Assembly (NCBI GenBank): GCA_017549285.1
Contig: JAFYVE010000028.1
Coordinates: forward strand, 1 to 36,217
Length of the DNA stretch: 36,217 bases
Source of the DNA: Clostridia bacterium
Lineage (GTDB): Bacteria > Bacillota > Clostridia > Oscillospirales > Acutalibacteraceae
Direction: 5' to 3'
Of this stretch, positions 13,318-25,725 are shown piece after piece; the stretch's first letter is position 1; each line of letters starts with the position of its first letter. The notes under the pieces are model-generated. The model was not told the DNA's origin, ran no database searches, and worked only from the letters and a program-made list of their open reading frames with translations. The position numbers and the translations under genes were made by a program.

Positions 13318-15201
13318 ATGTCAGTTATAAGCGCACACGAACTAACAATGGAGTTCCTCGATAATGTGCTCTTTGATAAAGCGAGTTTCGACATTGAAGA
13401 GCACGATAAAGTGGGACTTATCGGTAACAACGGAACAGGTAAAACAACACTTTTCAAGCTGATTGCGGGTATTCACGAACCTGCAGACGGCGGTCTTTTC
13501 ATATCTTCAACTGCAAGAACGGGCTATGTTGAACAGCACGCCTGCGCAGATTTCAACAAGACAGCAAAAGAAGAAATGCTGTCTGTTTTTTCGCATCTTG
13601 AAATTATGGAAAAAGAGCTTGAACAGCTTCATAATATAATTGATACTCAGCCCTCAAATCTGTCCGAGCTGATTGAAAAGCAATCACTTATGACAGAAAG
13701 ATTTCAGTCAATGGGCGGTCTTACTTTCCGTTCAAGGGCCAATTCAATGCTTTCCGGTCTTGGATTTACCGAGGAAGAACAGAATCTTCCCGTAGGTGAC
13801 TTAAGTGGTGGTCAGAGAACAAAAATTGCCCTCGGCAAACTACTTTTGTCCGATTCGGATCTGATATTGCTTGACGAACCGACAAACCACCTTGATATAA
13901 AAAGTGTTGAGTGGCTTGAAGATTTTCTTACAAAATATAACGGTACTGCACTGATTGTTTCTCACGACAGATATTTCCTTGACAAAGTCACAAACAAAAC
14001 AATGGAAATCGAGCATAAGAAAATTACTGTCAGAAAAGGCAATTACTCCGTTTATGCAAAGCTCAAGGAAGAACAGAGAGAATCTGACAGAAGAAAATAC
14101 GAACAGCAGGCAAAAGAAGTTGAACGTATTGAAGGCATTATAAAACAGCAGAAGCAGTTCAATCGTGAGCGGAATTATATTACTATTGCAAGTAAACAGA
14201 AACAGATTGATCGTATAAAAGAAGATATGGTAGCTCCCGAAAGCGACGAAAAGGCTATGAAGCTCAGATTTGAGTCAGGTGCGGTCAGCGGTAATGAAGT
14301 TATAAATATAACCGATTTATCAAAATCATACGGAGAAAAAACACTTTTCAGAAACGTAAATCTCAGAGTTATGAAAGGTGAAAGAGTCTTTATTCTCGGT
14401 TCAAACGGATGCGGCAAATCAACATTTCTGAAAGCTGTTTTAGGCAAACTTCAGGCTGATACGGGTTATGCTTCTTTCGGCGCAAATGTTCAGCCGGGAT
14501 ACTTTGACCAGATACAATCGGGTCTTGATTCGGACAAGACCGTTTTACAGGAAGTTTATGATAAATTCCCTGCCTTCACTATTTCACAGCTCAGAGGTTT
14601 TCTTGGGGCTTTCAGATTCAGAGGCGATGCTATCGAGAAGAAAATGTGCGAACTTTCAGGTGGTGAAAGAGCAAGAACAGCCCTTCTTGAACTGATGCTC
14701 AGAAAACCTAATCTTCTTATTCTTGACGAACCTACAAACCATCTTGACATAGCTTCCAGAGAAGTTCTTGAAGAAGCCCTGACAGATTATGACGGCACAC
14801 TTTTCTGTGTTTCTCACGACCGTTTCCTTGTGAATAAACTTGCAACAAAGATTCTTATTCTTGACAAGGGTTATCTTACTGTTTGTAACGGCAATTATGA
14901 TGATTACATAAATACACTCAACACAGCTGAAATAAAAACGGAAAAGAAAGAAAAAAAGCCTAATGAATATCAGCTCAGAAAAGAAAAGGAATCAATGGAG
15001 CGCAAGAAAAAGACAAGAATAAAGCGTCTTGAGGAAGAAATTGAGCAGACCGAAAACGATAAAAACGAAGTGCAGGATATGCTCAACTTACCTGAAACTG
15101 CGGCTGACTATGAGAAGCTTATCCAACTTACAAACAGACTTGACGAGCTTACAAAAAAGCAGGAAGAACTGTACGAAGAATGGCTTGAGCTGAATGTCTG
15201 A
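13318..15201 (+). CDS. ABC-F family ATPase (YdiF/Uup-like translation factor)
   Basis: The 627-residue protein has two ATP-binding cassettes and no membrane segments, which defines ABC-F. Cassette 1 has GNNGTGKT (36-43), LSGGQ (162-166) and DEPTNHLD. Cassette 2 has GSNGCGKST (from 361), LSGGE (from 446) and DEPTNHLD. A charged linker between them carries the RNA-contact region, and residues from about 545 on form a basic coiled coil. ABC-F proteins act at the ribosomal E site to relieve stalls or, in some members, to protect from antibiotics. Length and C-terminal coiled coil are most like housekeeping YdiF/Uup members; specific drug resistance cannot be inferred. It is followed by a clear terminator. 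Confidence 0.93.
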   Translation: MSVISAHELTMEFLDNVLFDKASFDIEEHDKVGLIGNNGTGKTTLFKLIAGIHEPADGGLFISSTARTGYVEQHACADFNKTAKEEMLSVFSHLEIMEKELEQLHNIIDTQPSNLSELIEKQSLMTERFQSMGGLTFRSRANSMLSGLGFTEEEQNLPVGDLSGGQRTKIALGKLLLSDSDLILLDEPTNHLDIKSVEWLEDFLTKYNGTALIVSHDRYFLDKVTNKTMEIEHKKITVRKGNYSVYAKLKEEQRESDRRKYEQQAKEVERIEGIIKQQKQFNRERNYITIASKQKQIDRIKEDMVAPESDEKAMKLRFESGAVSGNEVINITDLSKSYGEKTLFRNVNLRVMKGERVFILGSNGCGKSTFLKAVLGKLQADTGYASFGANVQPGYFDQIQSGLDSDKTVLQEVYDKFPAFTISQLRGFLGAFRFRGDAIEKKMCELSGGERARTALLELMLRKPNLLILDEPTNHLDIASREVLEEALTDYDGTLFCVSHDRFLVNKLATKILILDKGYLTVCNGNYDDYINTLNTAEIKTEKKEKKPNEYQLRKEKESMERKKKTRIKRLEEEIEQTENDKNEVQDMLNLPETAADYEKLIQLTNRLDELTKKQEELYEEWLELNV

Positions 15202-15453: not shown

Positions 15454-16392
15454 ATGTACAAAGTTTTTATTGACGGTAATCAGGGTACTACAGGATTAAG
15501 ACTTTTTGACCGTCTGAGCAAAAGAAACGATATTGAACTGCTCACAATAAGCGAAAACTTAAGAAAAGACAGAGATGAGCGAAGACGTCTTATCAATGAA
15601 AGTGACATCACCTTCCTTTGCCTTCCCGATGAAGCATCAAGAGAATCTGTTTCACTCTGCGACAATGAAAACACAGTCATAATTGATACTTCAACTGCTC
15701 ACAGAACAAATCCCGACTGGGCATACGGTTTTGCAGAGCTTTCTGATGAACACAGAGCAAAAATTGCTTCATCAAAAAGAATTGCAGTCCCCGGCTGTCA
15801 CGCAAGCGGTTTTATTTCAATAGTCTACGCCCTTATCGCAAACGGCTTTATGCCTTCTGATTATCCCGTTGTCTGCCATTCACTCACAGGTTACAGCGGT
15901 GGCGGTAAGAAGATGATTAATGACTATGAAAACGAAAAGAAAGCTGAACTTTTTGCTCCTGGTCAGTACGGTATTTCTCAGAATCACAAGCATCTCAAGG
16001 AAATGAAAGTTATCACAGGTCTTTCGGACTTCCCTCTTTTCACTCCGATTGTTGATGACTATTACAGCGGAATGGCGACTACAGTTCCTCTTTTCACAAA
16101 GCTTCTCAACAAGACAAACATTACTGAAATTCACAAAATGTTCTGTGAACATTACAAAGATTCTGCATTTATTGAAGTTATGCCTCTTCATGGCGGTGAA
16201 ACTCCCGTTTCTTTTGTTTATGCCAATGAAAAAAGCGGCAAAGACTCAATGAAAATATTTATTTCGGGCAACGAAGAGAGAATTTTTATCACAAGTGTGT
16301 TTGACAATCTCGGAAAAGGCGCTTCGGGTGCCGCAGTTCAGTGTATGAACATCTCAATGGGTATTGACGAAACAACATCACTTGATATCTGA
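15454..16392 (+). CDS. argC: N-acetyl-gamma-glutamyl-phosphate reductase, short (type 2) form
   Basis: The 312-residue protein is the short ArgC type. GNQGTTG at 8-14 binds the nucleotide and the catalytic Cys115 lies in AVPGCHASGF. It reduces N-acetylglutamyl phosphate to the semialdehyde with NADPH, the third step of arginine synthesis. It is the first gene of the operon, behind the promoter and ARG-like box. AGGGG upstream serves as ribosome site, though its spacing of about 11 is long. argJ starts 14 bases after its stop. Confidence 0.95.
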   Translation: MYKVFIDGNQGTTGLRLFDRLSKRNDIELLTISENLRKDRDERRRLINESDITFLCLPDEASRESVSLCDNENTVIIDTSTAHRTNPDWAYGFAELSDEHRAKIASSKRIAVPGCHASGFISIVYALIANGFMPSDYPVVCHSLTGYSGGGKKMINDYENEKKAELFAPGQYGISQNHKHLKEMKVITGLSDFPLFTPIVDDYYSGMATTVPLFTKLLNKTNITEIHKMFCEHYKDSAFIEVMPLHGGETPVSFVYANEKSGKDSMKIFISGNEERIFITSVFDNLGKGASGAAVQCMNISMGIDETTSLDI

Positions 16393-16406
16393 AAGGAATT
16401 TTGACT

Positions 16407-17621
16407 ATGCAATACATAAACGGCGGCGTATGTGCGCCAAAAGGTTTCAAAGCAAGCGGTATTCACTGCGGAATCAGAAAAAACAAGACAAAGCGTGACC
16501 TTGCACTTATTGTAAGTGACTGCAAGGCATCGGCGGCGGCTATATATACACTCAACCTCGTAAAAGGTGCTCCCATTTACGTTACAAAAGACAACATTTC
16601 GGATGGTTTTGCTCAGGCTATGGTCTGCAACAGCGGAAATGCAAACACCTGTAATGCAGACGGTGTTGAAATTGCAACAAAGATGTGCGAAATCACAGCA
16701 AAGGCTGCAGGAATTGATGCAAAAGATGTTATTGTAGCTTCAACAGGTGTTATCGGACAGCCTCTTGATATCACTCCAATTGCTGACGGTATGCCTCAGC
16801 TTGTTTCAGAGCTTTCATATGATAACAGCATAAATGCCGCAGAAGCTATTATGACAACAGACACAGTAAAGAAAGAGTTTGCCGTAAACTTCACTCTCGG
16901 CGGAAAAGAATGTAAAATGGGCGGTATTGCAAAAGGCTCAGGTATGATTCACCCAAACATGGCAACTATGCTTGTATTCATCACAACTGATGCGGCAATT
17001 TCTTCCGAGCTTCTTCACAAGGCTCTTTATTCAGATGCTCAGAAGAGCTTCAACATGATAAGCATTGACGGTGACACATCAACTAACGATATGGTTTCAG
17101 TTATGGCTAACGGTATGGCAGGCAATGAAATAATTACCGAAGAAAACGAAGACTTTGAAGTTTTCACAAAAGCTCTTGCCATGATTACGGAAAAACTCTG
17201 CCGTGCTATCGCAAAAGACGGTGAAGGCGCAACAAAGCTCGTTGAATGTTTTGTTTCAGGCGGTAAGGACTGGCATACAGCAAAGACAGTAGCAAAGTCA
17301 GTTATCTGTTCATCACTTTTCAAGGCTGCAATGTTCGGTGCCGATGCTAACTGGGGGCGTGTACTGTGCGCAATCGGTTACAGCGGTGCAGATGTTGATG
17401 TCACAAAAATTGACGTTTCATTCACAAGTGAAAAAGGCACTATCGAAGTATGCAAGGACGGTGCAGGCATTCCTTTCAGCGAAGAAAAGGCAAAGGAAAT
17501 ACTTCTCTGTGATGAAATCAAGGTAAACGTTAACCTCAAAGACGGTAATGCAGATGCAGTAGCAAGAGGTTGCGACCTTACTTACGATTACGTCAAAATC
17601 AACGGCGATTACAGAACTTAA
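16407..17621 (+). CDS. argJ: Bifunctional ornithine acetyltransferase / N-acetylglutamate synthase
   Basis: The 404-residue protein recycles the acetyl group from N-acetylornithine to glutamate and may also acetylate glutamate from acetyl-CoA. The self-cleavage site is KGSGMIHPNMATML, where the Thr after Ala becomes the N-terminal nucleophile of the beta chain. The FNMISIDGDTSTNDM and GADANWGR segments are also typical. An in-frame TTG at 16401 exists, but AAAGGA is correctly spaced (9 bases) only for the ATG at 16407. Its presence means the operon uses the cyclic acetyl route, so no argE or argA would be needed if it is bifunctional. Confidence 0.95.
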   Translation: MQYINGGVCAPKGFKASGIHCGIRKNKTKRDLALIVSDCKASAAAIYTLNLVKGAPIYVTKDNISDGFAQAMVCNSGNANTCNADGVEIATKMCEITAKAAGIDAKDVIVASTGVIGQPLDITPIADGMPQLVSELSYDNSINAAEAIMTTDTVKKEFAVNFTLGGKECKMGGIAKGSGMIHPNMATMLVFITTDAAISSELLHKALYSDAQKSFNMISIDGDTSTNDMVSVMANGMAGNEIITEENEDFEVFTKALAMITEKLCRAIAKDGEGATKLVECFVSGGKDWHTAKTVAKSVICSSLFKAAMFGADANWGRVLCAIGYSGADVDVTKIDVSFTSEKGTIEVCKDGAGIPFSEEKAKEILLCDEIKVNVNLKDGNADAVARGCDLTYDYVKINGDYRT

Positions 17622-17632
17622 GGAGTAACATT

Positions 17633-18487
17633 ATGGATATTTCAAATGCACAGAGAGCCGAGATATTAACCCAGGCTCTCCCCTATATACAGAAATACAG
17701 AAACAAGACCATAGTTGTAAAATACGGCGGAAACGCAATGATAAGCGAGGAGCTCAAAGAAGCTGTTATCGGTGACCTTGTACTTCTTTCACTTATCGGC
17801 ATCAGAGTTGTTCTTGTCCACGGCGGCGGTCCCGAAATTAATGACCTCCTCAAAAAGACAGGTAAAAAAAGTGAATTTATCGACGGTCTCCGTGTAACAG
17901 ACGAAGAAACCATCGAAGCCGTACAGATGGTTCTTGCAGGAAAAATCAACAAGAATCTTGTTAATAAAATCGGCAATATGGGCGGTAAAGCTGTAGGTCT
18001 TTGCGGTATTGACGGTCAGATGATCAAGGCAAAACAGCTCGATGATATCCACGGCTATGTCGGTGACATCACAGAAGTCAACACAACCGTCATCACAGAC
18101 CTTCTTGACAACGGCTATATTCCCGTTATTTCAACGGTTGCTTTCGACGAAGAAAACAATTCGTACAATATCAACGCAGATACTGCAGCAGCTTACATTG
18201 CAGGTGCGCTCAAAGCAGAAAGCCTTATCAATATGACTGATATCCCCGGTCTTATGCGTGACACAAACGACCCGTCATCACTTATCAAAAAGCTTTATCT
18301 CAGTGATGCGAGAGAGCTTATGCACGACGGTGTTATCTCGGGCGGTATGATTCCCAAGGTAGAGTGCTGTGTTGAAGCTATCAGAATGGGTGTTAAAAAA
18401 GTTTTCATCATTGACGGCAGAATCCCCCATGCAATTCTCATTGAAACCCTTACCGATGAAGGTATCGGCACAATGTTTATAGAGTAA
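17633..18487 (+). CDS. argB: Acetylglutamate kinase
   Basis: The 284-residue amino-acid kinase phosphorylates N-acetylglutamate. Family features are VVKYGGNAM near the N-terminus, LVHGGGPEIN, and ADTAAAYIAGALKAE with NMTDIPGLM towards the end. The frame extends upstream into argJ, but AAGGAG at 17620-17625 fits the ATG at 17633, 11 bases after the argJ stop. The N-terminal helix region before the core is compatible with arginine-sensitive forms, though feedback control cannot be settled by eye. Confidence 0.95.
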   Translation: MDISNAQRAEILTQALPYIQKYRNKTIVVKYGGNAMISEELKEAVIGDLVLLSLIGIRVVLVHGGGPEINDLLKKTGKKSEFIDGLRVTDEETIEAVQMVLAGKINKNLVNKIGNMGGKAVGLCGIDGQMIKAKQLDDIHGYVGDITEVNTTVITDLLDNGYIPVISTVAFDEENNSYNINADTAAAYIAGALKAESLINMTDIPGLMRDTNDPSSLIKKLYLSDARELMHDGVISGGMIPKVECCVEAIRMGVKKVFIIDGRIPHAILIETLTDEGIGTMFIE

Positions 18488-18497
18488 GGTGTTAAAA

Positions 18498-19661
18498 ATG
18501 ACAACAATTGAAAAAGATAAACAATATATTGCCAATACATACGGCAGATTCCCCGTAACCCTTGTAAGCGGTCACGGGGCAACTGCTGTTGACGAAAACG
18601 GCAAAGAATATATAGATATGGGCACAGGAATCGGCGTTAATGCTTTCGGTTACTGTGACAAGGAATGGGTTGAGGCTGTCACACAGCAGCTTAACACCCT
18701 TCAGCACACTTCAAACCTCTTCTATACTCAGCCCGGTGTTGAACTTGCAGAGCTTCTTTGCAAGAAATCGGGAATGAAGAAGTGCTTCTTCGGCAATTCA
18801 GGTGCAGAGGCAAATGAATGTGCAATCAAGGCCGCAAGAAAGTATTCACTTGATAAATATAATAATCCTGACAGAAACGTTATCATTTCACTCACCCAGA
18901 GCTTTCACGGCAGAACTCTTGCTACTCTCAAGGCAACAGGTCAGGATGTTTTTCACACAACCTTCGGACCCTTTCCGGAGGGTTTTGTATATGCAGAGGC
19001 TAACAATTTCGACTCTTTTATGAGTGTTTATAACGAAAATGTCTGTGCAGTCATTATGGAAATGGTTCAGGGTGAAGGCGGAGTCATTCCTTTAAATAAT
19101 AATTTTATTATAAAAGTAATTGAATTTTGTAAAAAATATGATATAATTGTAATAATAGACGAGGTTCAGACCGGCAACGGCAGAACAGGCAGTATGTATG
19201 CTTATCAGCAGTTCGGAATTGAACCCGATCTTGTTTCAACTGCAAAGGGTATTGCAGGTGGTCTTCCCATGGGTGTATGTCTCTTCGGTGAAAAGACAAA
19301 AGACACTATGACACCCTCATCACACGGTTCAACATTCGGTATGAATCCCGTTGTTGCAGCAGGTGCTTTAAGCATTGTAAAAAGGCTTGACGAGGACTTC
19401 CTTGCATCTGTAAGAGCAAAGGGTGAATACATCAGAAAACGTCTTGCAGAGTGTAAAAACGTTAAAAGCGTAACGGGTATGGGACTTATGCTCGGCATTG
19501 AAACAACAAAGGATGCAAAAGAAGTTGTTATGAAGTGCATCGAAAAAGGAGTTCTCCCCCTTACTGCAAAAACTAAAATAAGACTTCTTCCGCCTCTCAA
19601 TATTTCAGACGAAGAACTTGAGAAGGCTATGGATATAATCACGGAGGTAATTGAAGAATGA
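18498..19661 (+). CDS. argD: Acetylornithine aminotransferase
   Basis: The 387-residue class III PLP enzyme converts N-acetylglutamate semialdehyde to N-acetylornithine with glutamate as donor. Visible features are FGNSGAEANECAIKAARK, SFHGRT, the PLP-ring aspartate in IIDEVQTGNGRTG and the Schiff-base Lys in VSTAKGIAGGLPMG. A GTG at 18489 is in frame, but AAGGTG spacing favours the ATG at 18498. The stop overlaps the argF start (ATGA), giving coupled translation. Confidence 0.94.
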   Translation: MTTIEKDKQYIANTYGRFPVTLVSGHGATAVDENGKEYIDMGTGIGVNAFGYCDKEWVEAVTQQLNTLQHTSNLFYTQPGVELAELLCKKSGMKKCFFGNSGAEANECAIKAARKYSLDKYNNPDRNVIISLTQSFHGRTLATLKATGQDVFHTTFGPFPEGFVYAEANNFDSFMSVYNENVCAVIMEMVQGEGGVIPLNNNFIIKVIEFCKKYDIIVIIDEVQTGNGRTGSMYAYQQFGIEPDLVSTAKGIAGGLPMGVCLFGEKTKDTMTPSSHGSTFGMNPVVAAGALSIVKRLDEDFLASVRAKGEYIRKRLAECKNVKSVTGMGLMLGIETTKDAKEVVMKCIEKGVLPLTAKTKIRLLPPLNISDEELEKAMDIITEVIEE

Positions 19662-20584
19662 AACACTTACTCAAATTAGGTGATTATTCAGAGAAAGAAA
19701 TTCTCTCAATACTCAACCTTGCGGACCAGCTCAAATATGAGAAAAAGCACAACATTGAGCATCACTATCTTAAAGGCAAGACTCTCGGTATGATTTTTGC
19801 AAAGTCATCAACAAGAACAAGAGTTTCTTTTGAAGTAGGTATGTATGACCTCGGCGGATCGGCACTCTTCCTTTCAAATGCTAACACTCAGCTCGGCAGA
19901 GGCGAACCCGTTGAAGACACAGCAAGAGTTCTTTCACGTTATCTTGACGGTATTATGATCAGAACTTTCGATCAGGAAGAAGTTGAAACTCTCGCAAAAT
20001 ACGGTTCAATCCCCATCATCAACGGTCTTACAGACTATGCTCATCCCTGTCAGGTTCTTGCTGACCTTATGACAATCCGTGAATTCAAGAACACATTCAA
20101 GGGTATGAAACTTACATTCATCGGTGACGGCAACAATATGTGTAACTCACTTATCGTAGGCTGTATCAAGGTAGGTATGGATGTTGCAGTTGCTTGTCCC
20201 AAGGGTTATGAACCCGATGCAGACATTGTAAAATGGGCTAACGAAACAGGCAAATTCACACTCACAACAGATATCTTTGAAGCTGCAAAGGATGCTGATG
20301 TTCTTTACACAGACGTCTGGGCATCAATGGGTGAAGAAGCTGAAGCTGAAGAAAGAAAGAAGATTTTTGCAGGTTATCAGATTAATTCAGAACTTATGGC
20401 TGTTGCTCATCCCGATGCTATGGTTCTTCATTGCTTACCTGCTCACAGAGAGGAAGAAATCACAGCTGAAGTTTTTGAAGCTCACGCTGATGAAATCTTT
20501 GAAGAAGCTGAGAACAGACTTCACGCTCAGAAAGCTGTTCTTGTAAAACTTATGAAAGAACAGTATCAGGAAAACAGTAAATAA
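19658..20584 (+). CDS. argF: Ornithine carbamoyltransferase
   Basis: The 308-residue enzyme joins carbamoyl phosphate and ornithine to give citrulline. The carbamoyl-phosphate site SSTRTRVSFE, DYAHPCQVLADL, and the ornithine-site HCLPAHREEE are all present, so it is an ornithine rather than an aspartate enzyme and looks active. GGAGG inside the end of argD precedes the start. It lies directly before carA and carB, so carbamoyl phosphate made by that pair is probably meant for this enzyme. Confidence 0.95.
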   Translation: MKHLLKLGDYSEKEILSILNLADQLKYEKKHNIEHHYLKGKTLGMIFAKSSTRTRVSFEVGMYDLGGSALFLSNANTQLGRGEPVEDTARVLSRYLDGIMIRTFDQEEVETLAKYGSIPIINGLTDYAHPCQVLADLMTIREFKNTFKGMKLTFIGDGNNMCNSLIVGCIKVGMDVAVACPKGYEPDADIVKWANETGKFTLTTDIFEAAKDADVLYTDVWASMGEEAEAEERKKIFAGYQINSELMAVAHPDAMVLHCLPAHREEEITAEVFEAHADEIFEEAENRLHAQKAVLVKLMKEQYQENSK

Positions 20585-20626: not shown

Positions 20627-21682
20627 ATGAAAAAAATGTACATTGTACTCGAAGACGGACATATCTTCGAAGGCAAGGGTTACGGTGCAACGGGTGAAGC
20701 CGTCGGTGAACTTGTTTTCACAACCGGTGTTGTCGGTTATATCGAAACTCTTACAGATGCCGCTTATTACGGTCAGGTTGTTCTTCAGACATTCCCTCTT
20801 ATCGGTAATTACGGCATAATTGACGAAGACACAAACGGTGCAAAACCCGTTATAAAGGCTTATATTGCAAGAGAAATCTGTGATATGCCTTCAAACTTCA
20901 GATGTGAAGGTTTACTTGAAGATTATCTCAAGGAAAACGGAATTATTGCTGTCTGCGATGTTGACACAAGAGAACTTACCAAGCTTGTCCGTGAAAACGG
21001 TGCTATGAATGTCTGCATTACAGAAAATCCCAAGGATGTTGACCTTGAAGAACTCAAAGCTTATGAAATCAAAGATGCTCTTGCATCGGTTGCTTCAAAT
21101 AAAAAAGGTTACTTTGAAGCTGAAGAAAATAAATACTCGGTTGCTATGCTCGATTGCGGTGCTACGGCAAATGCTATCGAAAAACTTACAGACAAAGGCT
21201 GCAACGTTACTGTATTCCCCTACAACACAAAGGCTTCTGAAATTCTTGACGGCTCATTTGACGGTGTTGTTGTTTCAAACGGCCCCGGAAATCCTGCAGA
21301 AAACACAGACGTTATCGCTGAAGTTGCAAAACTTATGGCAGAAAAGCCCGTATTCGGTTTCGGTCTCGGTCATCAGCTTATGGCACTTGCAAAAGGCGGA
21401 CAGACTTCTAAAATGAAGTTTGGTCACAGAGGCGGAAGTGTTCCCGTAAGAAATGCAGTTGACGGCAAAGTTTTTGCAACTCATCAGAATCACGGTTACG
21501 TTGTTTCTGAAATTCCCTCAGATGCAAAAGTTCTTTTCACAAATGTCAGTGATAAAACAAACGAAGGTCTTGAATATGCAAATGCATTTTCAATCCAGTT
21601 TACACCCGACTGCTTCTCTGCAACGGTTGATACAGACAAAATTTACGATAAATTCATTTCACTTATGGGAGGTGACAAGTAA
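20627..21682 (+). CDS. carA: Carbamoyl-phosphate synthase small subunit with a dead glutaminase site
   Basis: The 351-residue protein is full length and aligns by motif with CarA along its whole course (FTTGVVGYIETLTD, LIGNYGIIDED, VVSNGPGNP, THQNHGYVV). The catalytic residues are missing. The nucleophile motif GICLGHQ reads GFGLGHQ, so Cys is Gly246 (codon GGT at 21362-21364). The His/Glu motif QFHPE reads QFTPD, giving Thr326 and Asp328. The glutamine-contact Ser in TDPSY is Ala46. The subunit can therefore hardly hydrolyse glutamine; it may survive as a structural partner for an ammonia-using CarB. There is no frameshift, and the stop overlaps the carB start by one base. A second active carA elsewhere in the genome cannot be excluded. 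Confidence 0.92.
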   Translation: MKKMYIVLEDGHIFEGKGYGATGEAVGELVFTTGVVGYIETLTDAAYYGQVVLQTFPLIGNYGIIDEDTNGAKPVIKAYIAREICDMPSNFRCEGLLEDYLKENGIIAVCDVDTRELTKLVRENGAMNVCITENPKDVDLEELKAYEIKDALASVASNKKGYFEAEENKYSVAMLDCGATANAIEKLTDKGCNVTVFPYNTKASEILDGSFDGVVVSNGPGNPAENTDVIAEVAKLMAEKPVFGFGLGHQLMALAKGGQTSKMKFGHRGGSVPVRNAVDGKVFATHQNHGYVVSEIPSDAKVLFTNVSDKTNEGLEYANAFSIQFTPDCFSATVDTDKIYDKFISLMGGDK

Positions 21683-24600
21683 TGCCGCTTAATAAAGACA
21701 TAAAAAAGGTTCTCGTTATCGGTTCAGGTCCTATCGTTATCGGTCAGGCTGCCGAATTCGACTACGCAGGTACTCAGGCCTGTAAAATCCTCAAGGATGA
21801 AGGTCTTGACGTAATACTTGTCAACTCTAACCCCGCTACCATTATGACAGATAATGCAAATGCGGATGAAATTTATCTTGAACCTCTGACAGAAGAAACT
21901 GTTATGAGAATCATTGAAAAAGAAAAGCCCGACTCAGTTCTTGCAGGTCTCGGCGGTCAGACAGGTCTTACCATCGGTATGCAGCTTGCAAAGAGCGGTT
22001 TCCTCGCAAAGCACGGTGTAAAGCTTATCGGTACAAATGCCGAAGCTATTGACCGTTCTGAAGACAGAGAGCTTTTTAAAGAAACAATGGAATCAATCGG
22101 TCAGCCCTGTATTCCTTCAGACATCGCAACTGAAGCTGAGCAGGCACGTGAGATTGCAAAGAGAATCGGCTTCCCCGTTATCATCCGTCCCGCTTTCACC
22201 CTTGGCGGCGCAGGTGGCGGTGTTGCTTACAATGAAGAAGAACTTATGCCTATTGTTCACAACGGTCTTCTTCTCTCTCCCATCAATCAGATTCTTGTTG
22301 AAAAATATATCTACGGCTGGAAAGAAGTTGAATTTGAAGCAATGCGTGACAGCGCAGGTAACGCTATCGCAGTCTGCTCAATGGAAAACTTCGACCCCGT
22401 TGGTGTTCATACAGGTGACAGTATCGTTATTGCTCCCGCTGTTACTCTTTCAAACAAAGAGTTTATGATGCTCCGTAATGCTTCACTCAAAATCATTGAA
22501 GCACTCGGCATCGAAGGCGGTTGTAACTGTCAGTTTGCTCTTAATCCCGAATCATTTGAATATGCAGTTATCGAAGTTAATCCCCGTGTTTCACGTTCAT
22601 CAGCTCTTGCATCAAAGGCAACAGGTTATCCGATTGCAAAGGTTGCAACAAAAGTTGCTCTCGGCTATACACTCGATGAAATCAGAAACGACGTTACAGG
22701 TGAAACATTTGCTTGTTTCGAGCCTACTGTTGACTACTGCGTAATCAAACTCCCCAAATGGCCCTTTGACAAGTTCATCAACGAAAAGAGAAAACTCGGC
22801 ACACAGATGAAGGCAACAGGCGAAGTTATGTCAATCGCTCCCTGCTTTGAAGCTGCAATTATGAAAGCTGTCCGCGGTGCTGAAATTTCACTTGATACTC
22901 TTAATTTCAAAAAGGTTCAGGACCCTGAAATCGACATCGTTGCAAAACTTCACGATGTTGATGATATCCGTCTTTTCACAGTATTTGAAGCTCTCAAGAG
23001 AGGCGTTTCAACAGAAACAATTCACGATATCACAAAGATTGACGAATGGTTCATTGAAAAGCTCAGAAATCTTGCTGACTACGAAGCTGAAATTGCAAAC
23101 GGTCTCACAGATGAACTTTACCTCAAGGGTAAGAAATACGGATATACAGATGCCGCTATTGAAAGAATCAGCGGTTCAAAAATAGAAAATCCCCGTGATG
23201 CTGTTTACAAGATGGTTGACACATGTGCGGCTGAATACAAGGCTCTTACACCTTATTTCTACTCCACATATGACAACGACTGTGAAGCAAGAGATTATCT
23301 CAAGGGCAACACAAAGAAGAAGATTATAGTTCTCGGTTCAGGTCCCATCAGAATCGGTCAGGGCATTGAATTCGACTACTCATCAGTTCATTGTGTATGG
23401 ACTCTCAAGAATCTCGGCTATGAAGTTGTTATCATCAACAACAACCCCGAAACAGTTTCAACAGACTTCGACACAGCTGACAGACTCTACTTTGAACCTC
23501 TCACTCCCGAAGATGTTCTCAACGTTATCAAGACAGAACAGCCCGAAGGTGTCGTTGTTGCATTCGGCGGACAGACAGCTATCAAGCTCACAAAGTTCCT
23601 TGATGACAACGGATTCAAGATTTTCGGAACATCAGCTGAAGGTATCGACATTGCAGAAGACAGAGAAAAGTTCGATGCTCTTCTTGAAAAGTTCGGTATC
23701 AGACGTCCCAAGGGTATGGGTGTTCTTACACTCGAAGAAGCTCTTGATGCGGCTCACACTCTCACATATCCCGTACTTCTCCGTCCTTCATACGTTATCG
23801 GCGGTCAGAACATGACTATCGCATACAACGATGAAGACGTAAGAAAATACATGAACATCATTCTTTCAGGTAAGATTGAAAATCCCGTTCTTGTTGACAA
23901 ATACATGATGGGTTCAGAACTTGAAGTTGACGTTATTTCAGACGGTAAAGATGTTCTTATCCCCGGTATCATGCAGCACGTTGAACGTGCAGGTGTTCAC
24001 TCAGGTGACTCAATTGCAGTTTATCCCCCCTACAACCTTCGTGACACAATGAAACAGACAATCATTGACTGTTCAACAAATCTTGCTCTTGCACTCGGCA
24101 CAAAGGGTCTTGTTAACATTCAGTACCTCATTTACGAAAATGAGCTTTATGTTATCGAAGTTAACCCCAGAGCTTCAAGAACAATTCCTTATATCAGTAA
24201 GGTTACGGGCGTACCTATGGTTGATATTGCAACAAAGGTTATGACAGGTACTCCCCTTAAAGATTTAGGCTTCGGCACAGGTCTTTACAAGACTCCCCCT
24301 TACTTTGCTGTCAAAGTTCCCGTCTTCTCATTTGAGAAACTTCTTGATGCTAACTCAAGCCTTGGTCCTGAAATGAAATCAACAGGTGAAGTTCTCGGTG
24401 TCGGTAAGACAATCGATGAAGCACTCTTCAAGGGTCTTGTTTCAGCAGGTTTTGAGATTGCTCCCAAGGAACTCGGCAAGGAAATGGGTGTTTACATCAC
24501 AGTTAAGGATGCTGACAAGCCCGAAGTTGTTGACCTTGCAAGAAAGTTCCATGATCTTGGTCTCAAGATTTACGCAACAGAAGGTACTGCTAAAGTTATC

Positions 24601-25725
24601 GGCTCTGTTGACATTGACGTAACAGTTGTCAACAAACTTTACGATGAATCAAACACAAGCATGGACCTTCTTGAAAGCGGAAAAATCAAGTACATTGTTT
24701 ACACAGGTACTCCCCTTGACGTTGTTGATGATTTCATCAAGCTTCACAGACGTGCTCTTCAGCTTTCAGTTGCAACGCTTACATCAATTGACACAGCAAA
24801 TGTTCTTGCTGACATTCTTGCAAGCGGATTCACTCAGGCAAATACAGAGCTTGTAAACATCAACGAAATGCGTACAGAGCCTACAAAGCTCAAGTTTGCT
24901 AAGATGCAGGGTTCAGGTAATGACTTCATCTTCTTTGATAATCTGAACGGTGAAATCACTTCTCCCGAAGTTCTTGCAATCAACTTCTGTAACAGACATT
25001 ACGGTATCGGTTCAGACGGTATTGTTCTTATTGAAAAGTCAGACATTGCAGATGCAAAGATGCTTATGTACAATAAAGACGGTTCAAAGGGCTATATCGC
25101 AGGTAACGGTCTGAGATGTGCAGGTAAATACCTTTATGACAACGGCATTGTTGACAAGACACATCTTACAATTGAAACTCCCGTAGGTCTTAAGAGAATT
25201 CATCTTTACACAGAAAACGGCAGAGTAAAATCTGTTAAGGTTTATATGGGCAAGGCAGAATTTGAAGCTGAAAAGATTCCCACAAACATCATTTCAAAGG
25301 GTAAGGTTGTTGACCAGCCCATCATCATTGACGGCAAAGAATACAATGTAACATGTGTTAACGTAGGCAATCCTCATTGTGTAGTTTTCGGAACACACAT
25401 TGATGCTTACAATCTTAAGGAAATCGGACCTGAGTTTGAAAATGCTAAATACTTCCCCGAGAAAATCAACACAGAATTCGTAAGAGTTGTTGATTCAAGA
25501 ACACTCCGTATGAGAGTTTGGGAAAGAGGCAACGGTGAAACATATGCATGCGGTACAGGTGCTTGTGCAGCAGTTGCAGCAGCTTGTGAACTCGGTTACA
25601 TTGAAAAAGGCAAGGATATCGTTGTTAAACTCAAGGGCGGCGACCTGATTGTCAATTACACAGACGAACAGATTACTCTTGAAGGTACAACAGACCTTAT
25701 CTTTACAGGCGTTATCGAATATTAA
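21682..25725 (+). CDS. carB: Carbamoyl-phosphate synthase large subunit fused to a DapF-like domain
   Basis: Residues 1-1062 are a complete CarB. Both ATP-grasp halves are present (GSGPIVIGQAAEFDYAGTQ near the start; GSGPIRIGQGIEFDYSS at the second half), as is a C-terminal regulatory MGS-like domain around YITVKDADKPEVVDL. The frame then continues without a stop into a diaminopimelate epimerase-like domain (1063-1347, DNA from 24868). This domain has MQGSGNDF, YNKDGS, VNVGNPHCVVF, INTEFV, WERGNGET and ACGTGACA. The second catalytic Cys is Cys1290. The first, normally in CGNG, is Ala1140 (GCA at 25099). CarB usually ends near residue 1070, so the last 285 residues are an added domain. An internal ATG at 24868 exists but has no good ribosome site. 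CarB looks active; DapF activity is doubtful. Confidence 0.93.
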   Translation: MPLNKDIKKVLVIGSGPIVIGQAAEFDYAGTQACKILKDEGLDVILVNSNPATIMTDNANADEIYLEPLTEETVMRIIEKEKPDSVLAGLGGQTGLTIGMQLAKSGFLAKHGVKLIGTNAEAIDRSEDRELFKETMESIGQPCIPSDIATEAEQAREIAKRIGFPVIIRPAFTLGGAGGGVAYNEEELMPIVHNGLLLSPINQILVEKYIYGWKEVEFEAMRDSAGNAIAVCSMENFDPVGVHTGDSIVIAPAVTLSNKEFMMLRNASLKIIEALGIEGGCNCQFALNPESFEYAVIEVNPRVSRSSALASKATGYPIAKVATKVALGYTLDEIRNDVTGETFACFEPTVDYCVIKLPKWPFDKFINEKRKLGTQMKATGEVMSIAPCFEAAIMKAVRGAEISLDTLNFKKVQDPEIDIVAKLHDVDDIRLFTVFEALKRGVSTETIHDITKIDEWFIEKLRNLADYEAEIANGLTDELYLKGKKYGYTDAAIERISGSKIENPRDAVYKMVDTCAAEYKALTPYFYSTYDNDCEARDYLKGNTKKKIIVLGSGPIRIGQGIEFDYSSVHCVWTLKNLGYEVVIINNNPETVSTDFDTADRLYFEPLTPEDVLNVIKTEQPEGVVVAFGGQTAIKLTKFLDDNGFKIFGTSAEGIDIAEDREKFDALLEKFGIRRPKGMGVLTLEEALDAAHTLTYPVLLRPSYVIGGQNMTIAYNDEDVRKYMNIILSGKIENPVLVDKYMMGSELEVDVISDGKDVLIPGIMQHVERAGVHSGDSIAVYPPYNLRDTMKQTIIDCSTNLALALGTKGLVNIQYLIYENELYVIEVNPRASRTIPYISKVTGVPMVDIATKVMTGTPLKDLGFGTGLYKTPPYFAVKVPVFSFEKLLDANSSLGPEMKSTGEVLGVGKTIDEALFKGLVSAGFEIAPKELGKEMGVYITVKDADKPEVVDLARKFHDLGLKIYATEGTAKVIGSVDIDVTVVNKLYDESNTSMDLLESGKIKYIVYTGTPLDVVDDFIKLHRRALQLSVATLTSIDTANVLADILASGFTQANTELVNINEMRTEPTKLKFAKMQGSGNDFIFFDNLNGEITSPEVLAINFCNRHYGIGSDGIVLIEKSDIADAKMLMYNKDGSKGYIAGNGLRCAGKYLYDNGIVDKTHLTIETPVGLKRIHLYTENGRVKSVKVYMGKAEFEAEKIPTNIISKGKVVDQPIIIDGKEYNVTCVNVGNPHCVVFGTHIDAYNLKEIGPEFENAKYFPEKINTEFVRVVDSRTLRMRVWERGNGETYACGTGACAAVAAACELGYIEKGKDIVVKLKGGDLIVNYTDEQITLEGTTDLIFTGVIEY

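Follow-up and report, generated by a model that had tools for sequence, protein, structure and literature searches.

Known Carbamoyl Phosphate Synthetases and Related Systems

The review PMC6245113 gives glutamine as the physiological donor for all bacterial carbamoyl phosphate synthetases (CPSases) and assigns the synthesis of carbamoyl phosphate from ammonia to the CarB subunit, at ammonia levels which in E. coli are very high and likely to be physiologically irrelevant; the statements on the donor and on the ammonia levels count against the reading proposed below. The known precedent of an ammonia-only enzyme is CPS I, which, according to review literature, needs N-acetylglutamate and works in the urea cycle. 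A similar division is known for NAD synthetase, for which PMC3376133 describes a glutamine/ammonia split within one family, lineage-specific losses and ammonia as the physiological donor of the single-domain enzymes; these have no glutaminase domain, and their use of ammonia is regarded as ancestral, whereas the organisms described here still have the glutaminase subunit and its loss of function is a derived condition that recurs. Bacterial GMP synthetases are described as two-domain proteins, and GMP synthetases and their ATPPase units as able to use external ammonia (PMC10526850). No earlier report of a triad-less bacterial CarA was found in the open-licence PMC literature.

The Arginine Operon and the CarB-DapF Fusion

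The window, that is, the whole stretch of 36,217 nucleotides analysed here, contains an arginine operon on the + strand in the order argC-argJ-argB-argD-argF-carA-carB. The first gene, argC (15454..16392), encodes an N-acetyl-gamma-glutamyl-phosphate reductase of the argC_other type according to NCBIfam, and the other enzymes around carA were named by family search: argJ (16401..17621), the acetylglutamate kinase gene argB (17570..18487, as the listed ORF, the true start being probably later), argD (18489..19661) and argF (19658..20584), whose product, ornithine carbamoyltransferase, is a consumer of carbamoyl phosphate. The carA gene (20627..21682) is followed by a carB-dapF fusion (21682..25725) of 1347 aa, with CarB at residues 4–1044 and DapF at residues 1071–1345. 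The last base of the carA stop codon is also the first base of the carB start codon (TAATG). Upstream of the operon lies an ABC-F ATPase (13318–15201), for which, among the matches listed (25 of 186 from NCBIfam), the general ribosomal protection-like ABC-F model alone is over its cut-off.

In the window CarB, the equivalents of Arg129, Arg169, Glu215, His243, Gln285, Glu299, Asn301, Arg303, Arg306, Arg675, Arg715, Gln829, Glu841, Asn843, Arg845 and Arg848, which we take to be the catalytic residues, are all kept. These sites are conserved at 0.91–1.0 in 32 CarBs adjoining a CarA with a broken triad. A cluster of changed CarB sites at 225–275, striking by frequency, failed a rank test (p 0.44) and was dropped. 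Long CarB frames are common in the sample: 100 of the 178 CarB frames downstream of CarA (duplicates included) exceed 1200 aa, with CarA intact or broken alike; the identity of the extra part as DapF comes from the family search of the window. No paper on a CarB-DapF fusion was found in an open-licence PMC search.

Compared with E. coli CarAB, a bacterial CPS II, the window has the same domains, the same CarB catalytic residues, the CarA fold and the order of carA then carB; the differences are that its CarA is without the triad and Ser47, and that its CarB is fused to DapF.

CarA without the Glutaminase Triad

The carA ORF encodes 351 aa in a frame that is open throughout, with a CPSase small-chain domain at residues 6–131 and a class I glutamine amidotransferase (GATase) domain at residues 174–345. 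The positions of the lost triad were read, on the + strand, from an alignment to E. coli K-12 CarA. First of all, Gly246 (codon GGT, 21362..21364, motif VFGFGLGHQ) stands at the place of the nucleophile Cys269. Thr326 (ACA), Pro327 and Asp328 (GAC), in the motif QFTPD (21602..21610), correspond to His353, Pro354 and Glu355. Moreover, Ala46 (GCT, 20762..20764, motif LTDAAYY) replaces Ser47, presumably the glutamine-contact residue, which has a frequency of 0.99 in 125 triad-intact CarAs of the order. In the loop of residues 330–334 (21614..21628), equivalent to E. coli 357–361, Gly359-Pro360 is replaced, as seen in the alignment. The initial description of a whole triad and a contact serine lost in an intact frame is thus confirmed at Ala46, Gly246, Thr326 and Asp328. 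The residues retained relative to E. coli CarA include Gly219, Pro220, Gly221, Leu247, His249, Gln250, Asn288, His289 and Gly290.

By homology the protein belongs to the CarA family, with both Pfam domains over the cut-off (PF00988 at 152.7 bits, PF00117 at 118 bits) and a score of 362.1 against NF009475 (cut-off 221). It also still passes TIGR01368, the model for the glutamine-hydrolyzing small subunit (350.7, cut-off 307.35), and since the triad is absent, automatic annotation would mislabel it. Of the features of a CPS II small subunit, neither the Cys-His-Glu triad nor the Ser47 contact is there. As for the features of a CPS I-type enzyme, a putatively non-catalytic glutaminase-like part is kept beside an apparently intact synthetase, judged from sequence and model, while carA and carB are separate genes and not one polypeptide.

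The AF2 model (36-row alignment) has a mean pLDDT of 90.1 and a pTM of 0.91, and residues 330–334 are the only stretch of three or more residues with pLDDT below 50. In Foldseek, the top match of the model is E. coli CarA (1jdb_C, TM 0.93), followed after E. coli CarA by human CPS1 (5dot, TM 0.88); the window CarA is thus predicted to have the full CarA fold. The E. coli CarA mutants C269S (1c30) and G359F (1m6v) are among the best structural matches, and both of their mutated positions are also altered in the window lineage; unlike these single engineered changes, the window CarA has changed by evolution at four active-site positions and in the 357–361 loop.

Authenticity and Selection

The four residues recur unchanged in the CarAs of three relatives, each from a separate ruminant-gut assembly: RGIG4537 (roe deer rectum, 91% identity), RGIG9408 (yak cecum, 86%) and RGIG6514 (sheep rectum, 86%), so that Gly246, Thr326 and Asp328 turn out to be shared, a comparison that the initial annotation had proposed as a check. 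Among the four assemblies the altered codons themselves vary synonymously (Ala GCT/GCA, Thr ACA/ACT, Asp GAC/GAT), and dS is about 0.6 with identical active-site residues. A sequencing or binning error would find some room in the fact that the named relatives are metagenome-assembled genomes (MAGs) and that the genome of the window (G000) is an incomplete draft of 56 contigs; the concordance of four assemblies with synonymous differences at the very codons concerned, together with the at least 12 supported state changes on the CarA tree described below, leaves it practically no probability. Sequencing error as the cause of the triad loss is ruled out by the concordant assemblies, and the loss is therefore no error.

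The genus of the window is mixed, a point which, like the CarB-DapF fusion, the initial annotation had not noted. Among ten other genomes of the genus, nine have a CarA, four of them broken (G004, G005, G007 and G009) and five intact (G001, G002, G003, G006 and G008); in the search of these ten genomes, G010 gave no CarA match.

Among the four assemblies, dN/dS is 0.125 for carA (0.108 in the N-domain and 0.133 in the GATase domain), 0.017 for carB, 0.025 for argF, 0.033 for dapF and 0.048 for argB; that is to say, the value of carA is about seven times that of carB. In the intact congeners, the CarA N-domain is at 0.045 and the GATase domain at 0.063, with dS saturated. The carA gene of the window clade is under purifying selection, yet clearly relaxed.

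The relaxation would suit another explanation, namely that CarA is a decaying remnant without a role, on its way to being lost, and that CarB alone works, since dN/dS of carA lies above that of its neighbours and of the intact congeners (the latter with saturated dS). However, the dN/dS of each domain is still well under 1, none of the four assemblies has a disrupted frame, and the equivalents of Leu270, His272, Gln273 and Gln310–Gly313 stand at 0.89–1.0 in 44 broken CarAs, which makes a mere remnant unlikely. All carA/carB loci were located through carA, and genomes with carB and without carA lie outside the sample.

Recurrence of Broken CarAs in the Order

The CarA census was ranked by likeness to the window CarA and is not a random sample; the triad states come from pairwise tblastn alignments, in which a few calls near gaps may be off. 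A further 120 CarAs of the same family and order, 100 from one ranked list and 20 from another, comprise 90 with Cys-His-Glu and 30 without, in 25 combinations. Left out of the census were 13 listed rows and the unlisted ones of the first list, and several of the second, including G016:C60, G019:C43, G028:C13, G024, G036 and G037:C67. Altogether 51 of 235 distinct CarAs are broken: 43 are without the Cys, mostly with Gly in its place (33), and eight keep the Cys and are without the His and/or the Glu.

For the CarA tree, near-copies (more than 98.5% identical) were removed and the trait (motif) columns were dropped, which left 169 near-full-length rows, 44 of them broken; it is a quick tree without a mixture model, in which L451, L450, L449 and L052 were flagged as long branches. 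On this tree the intact and broken states require 24 changes, and well-supported branches force no fewer than 12 of these. The broken label is clustered, since shuffled labels needed 39 changes on average and none of 500 shuffles came as low as 24. These counts do not distinguish loss from gain; a whole triad is unlikely to be regained, however, so that most of the at least 12 changes should be losses. The initial annotation had supposed an origin independent of animal CPS1, and that view gains strength from the 12 or more supported switches of state within a single bacterial order.

The window clade (L001 and L003–L005, with Gly/Thr/Asp) joins L009 (Ser/Tyr/Gly) with support 91 and adjoins four intact congeners, and Ala at 46 is shared by its four members and L009, five in all. 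Among L075–L133 without L106, by title mostly Lachnospiraceae, Erysipelotrichaceae and Lactobacillus, only 2 of 58 are broken (L100 and L128); L106, which is broken and titled Clostridia bacterium, was excluded from the 58 as probably of the same order as the window. Three genomes carry two CarAs, one intact and one degenerate: G011 (L013/L447), G012 (L441/L452) and G043 (L027/L451). A codon-pattern scan for a Cys-less GxLGHQ matched 93 of 394 genomes and was dropped as evidence; of 30 scan loci that were read, 15 look like Obg GTPases by motif, one is the window CarA and 14 lie in other frames.

Residues Lost and Kept with the Triad

In 23 path-disjoint broken/intact pairs, one-way losses at sites conserved in intact CarAs (E. 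coli numbering) were counted at M237 (20), H353 (20), N204 (18), C269 (17), N240 (16), E355 (16), S47 (13), I205 (13), K202 (12), P360 (12) and G359 (10), against 27 intact control pairs in which no site is lost in more than 4. In the 44 broken CarAs of the tree, H272 and Q310 stand at 1.0, N311 at 0.95 and H312 at 0.93, and the whole set of Leu270, His272, Gln273, Gln310, Asn311, His312 and Gly313 equivalents lies at 0.89–1.0. It follows that the glutamine site and the 359–360 loop go and the framework stays. The 359 loop is taken here to border the ammonia tunnel, and ammonia may enter in the region of the 359–360 loop. A paper whose title concerns an escape route for ammonia is in the reference list of PMC6941894.

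This pattern also bears on the idea that CarA has become a glutamine sensor or regulatory subunit, which would bind glutamine without cutting it and gate the use of ammonia. The equivalents of Gly241, Gly243, Leu270, Gln273, Asn311 and Gly313 are indeed kept at 0.89–0.98 in the 44 broken CarAs. The Ser47 equivalent, however, is lost in 29 of these 44 and in the window, and the substituted residues vary between lineages. This pattern is more in keeping with decay than with the rise of a new binding site, so that such a sensor is very improbable.

Other Amidotransferases and Consumers of Carbamoyl Phosphate

Genome completeness bounds every call of absence made here, and the genome of the window is 88% complete. 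Within it, no second CarA was found at E values up to 10, except for a stretch of 70 residues at 26% identity (E 0.03); another carA, for which the initial annotation advised a search, is thus not found in this 88% complete genome. A single CarA match (cut-off 1e-3) is present in each of G000, G004, G005, G007 and G009. In G007, which is 97% complete, the counterpart of the window CarA is the only CarA found, and the same genome has a complete pyrimidine operon.

Two PF00117 proteins occur in G000: CarA and a protein with GICLGMQ and QFHPE, which, in view also of its his-gene neighbours, we take to be HisH. In G000, G004, G139 and G209 the PF00117 matches are CarA and one HisH-size protein only, and this protein reads as an intact HisH in G000 and G004; the HisH motifs are kept in G000, G004, G005, G007 and G009, and four other loci did not match the motif used. 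The Cys motif CGICNGFQ of a protein presumed to be PurL is also kept, as seen in G165 only. Two proteins of G000 start with MCG and read as GlmS-like and AsnB-like, names which we assume from motif and length. G000 has a glutamine synthetase, as do 50 of the 52 genomes in all. The absence of glutamine from the cell, considered as a cause, was ruled out by glutamine synthetase, the intact HisH and the MCG-start GlmS-like and AsnB-like proteins; with these kept, the change is selective and glutamine itself is available.

One further PF00117 protein of 244–247 aa is present in the triad-less G007, G009 and G165. It would be a candidate for a glutaminase in trans, docking on CarB in CarA's place or delivering ammonia from elsewhere, and the question of a committed glutaminase was once raised for single-domain NAD synthetases (PMC3376133). 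Against this, G000, G004, G139 and G209 show only CarA and the HisH-size protein among their PF00117 matches, and CarA still stands in its operon place, so that supply in trans is improbable.

As for the consumers, PyrB was not found in the 88% complete G000, in which ArgF is the only member of the OTCace family. A second OTCace-family member is present in each of the four broken congeners (G004, G005, G007 and G009), and in G007 its region is the complete pyrI-pyrB-pyrE-pyrF-pyrD-pyrK-pyrC set.

Association with PyrG, GuaA and PurF

The CarA state is known for 52 genomes. Those with a broken CarA lack the N-domain of CTP synthase (PF06418) in 12 of 14 cases, those with an intact one in 5 of 38 (Fisher p 2e-6, with relatedness ignored), and among genomes at least 90% complete PyrG is absent from 6 of 7 versus 1 of 27. 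Where a broken CarA is the only CarA match, PyrG is absent in 12 of 12 genomes and full-length GuaA likewise in 12 of 12. In all, PyrG was not found in 17 of the 52 genomes, of which seven have a completeness of 90% or more; G007, for its part, has the full UMP genes. The absence of PyrG beside a complete UMP pathway is odd, and CTP must come from salvage or from an unknown enzyme.

In ten broken genomes the GMP synthetase C-domain (PF00958) lies in frames of 337–357 aa. The short GuaA of G000 (L316:7257-8258, 333 aa) covers positions 190–512 of the 512-position NF000848, that is, the synthetase without the glutaminase, and NF000848 names it as the glutamine-hydrolyzing type although the glutaminase domain is absent. 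The GuaA of G038 (L324:13866-15161) is 431 aa long, in a frame of 433 aa, and its match to the family model begins only at position 177; a residual GATase match of 76 positions was noted at its start. PF00958 was not found in G317, which has a broken CarA. The broken genomes G011 and G343 have a full-length GuaA and two CarA matches each, the second of G011 (L447) being intact. A full GuaA occurs in 30 of the 38 intact genomes; three (G002, G047 and G059) have only a shorter frame, and in the remaining five none was found, so that eight are without a full GuaA. Both a full and a short GuaA occur in some genomes with an intact CarA.

PurF homologues that start with MGGFFG, the N-terminal Cys nucleophile being replaced by Gly, and that fall under the TIGR01134 cut-off, are present in the broken-CarA genomes G165 and G005 (L319:11074-12492 and L320:6855-8261). 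The neighbours of the G165 homologue are purM, purN, a purH-type formyltransferase and purD, with the presumed PurL just downstream. In G139 and G038 a PurF-like protein, by motif and length, has the usual ECGVFGI start, and the matches listed for G000, G004 and G007 at E up to 0.01 include none as long as PurF.

When CarA loss was compared with PyrG or GuaA in path-disjoint tests, only four supported pairs were available and the result was not significant (p 0.125 at best); pairs running the opposite way number none for PyrG and one for GuaA, the latter in few of 200 pairings. In summary, similar changes of CarA arose repeatedly in the order, and they go along with the absence of PyrG and of the glutaminase part of GuaA.

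Proposed Mechanism

A retained non-catalytic CarA beside an ammonia-fed CarB is the best reading of the comparative evidence and is likely to hold; in this respect the proposal of the initial annotation is supported. The evidence consists of the sole CarA found, the kept CarB residues, purifying selection, ArgF and, in relatives, PyrB as consumers, and HisH as the only other PF00117 amidotransferase found in G000. With its nucleophile, both members of the His/acid pair and the Ser that contacts glutamine all replaced, CarA should be unable to hydrolyse glutamine; it would be a pseudo-glutaminase, whose fold and place beside CarB are kept and whose glutamine hydrolysis is predicted to be lost. 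With the ammonia-releasing residues missing from CarA, the straightforward reading is that CarB takes ammonia from solution. Both ATP-grasp active sites of CarB being intact, free NH3 from the cytosol would be converted into carbamate and carbamoyl phosphate, the NH3 entering probably at the disused glutaminase pocket or at an altered CarA-CarB interface, and carbamoyl phosphate would pass to ArgF next door and, in relatives, also to PyrB. CarA may be kept for structure, i.e., for the assembly or stability of CarB, for shaping the ammonia path or for allostery. The use of ammonia, the entry route and the structural role of CarA are what we infer from these data. An ammonia-rich niche has only circumstantial support, the named relatives coming from the ruminant hindgut.

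Several points count against the use of ammonia: carA is relaxed; HisH keeps its triad in five genomes, PurL its Cys motif in G165, and the GlmS-like and AsnB-like proteins of G000 their MCG start; glutamine synthetase is present; and G000 has no PyrB found. Further, the Cys is still there in 8 of the 51 broken CarAs, PyrG is missing from 5 and a full GuaA from 8 of the 38 genomes with an intact CarA, the path-disjoint tests against PyrG and GuaA are not significant, and the cluster of CarB sites at 225–275 fails its rank test.

More tentatively, several gut Clostridia lineages of this one order may have repeatedly switched the nitrogen of nucleotides and arginine from glutamine to ammonia, with the CarA triad dead, GuaA reduced to its synthetase, sometimes the PurF Cys changed to Gly, PyrG gone, CTP drawn from scavenged cytidine or from an unknown and possibly ammonia-dependent route, and HisH, PurL and GlmS still glutamine-dependent; this wider proposal could hold, and is slightly easier to doubt than to accept.

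Significance

Vertebrate CPS1 is likewise an ammonia-only CPS that keeps a glutaminase-like domain, with which the window CarA model aligns as given above; it differs in being one polypeptide that depends on N-acetylglutamate in the urea cycle, and the window has two genes in a bacterial arginine operon. The window CarAB may well work like CPS I and is not a member of CPS I. Profile-based annotation, as with TIGR01368 and NF000848, can name proteins glutamine-hydrolyzing when the needed residues or domain are absent. If the ammonia-fed reading is true, the lineage would be a bacterial and repeatedly evolved counterpart of CPS1, and nature would have repeated many times the experiment of turning a tunnelled amidotransferase into an enzyme of ammonia, so that the residues which change along the way could be compared. 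The link with missing PyrG and glutaminase-free GuaA, moreover, opens a way to test, both by genomics and in vitro, when cells use free ammonia in place of glutamine.
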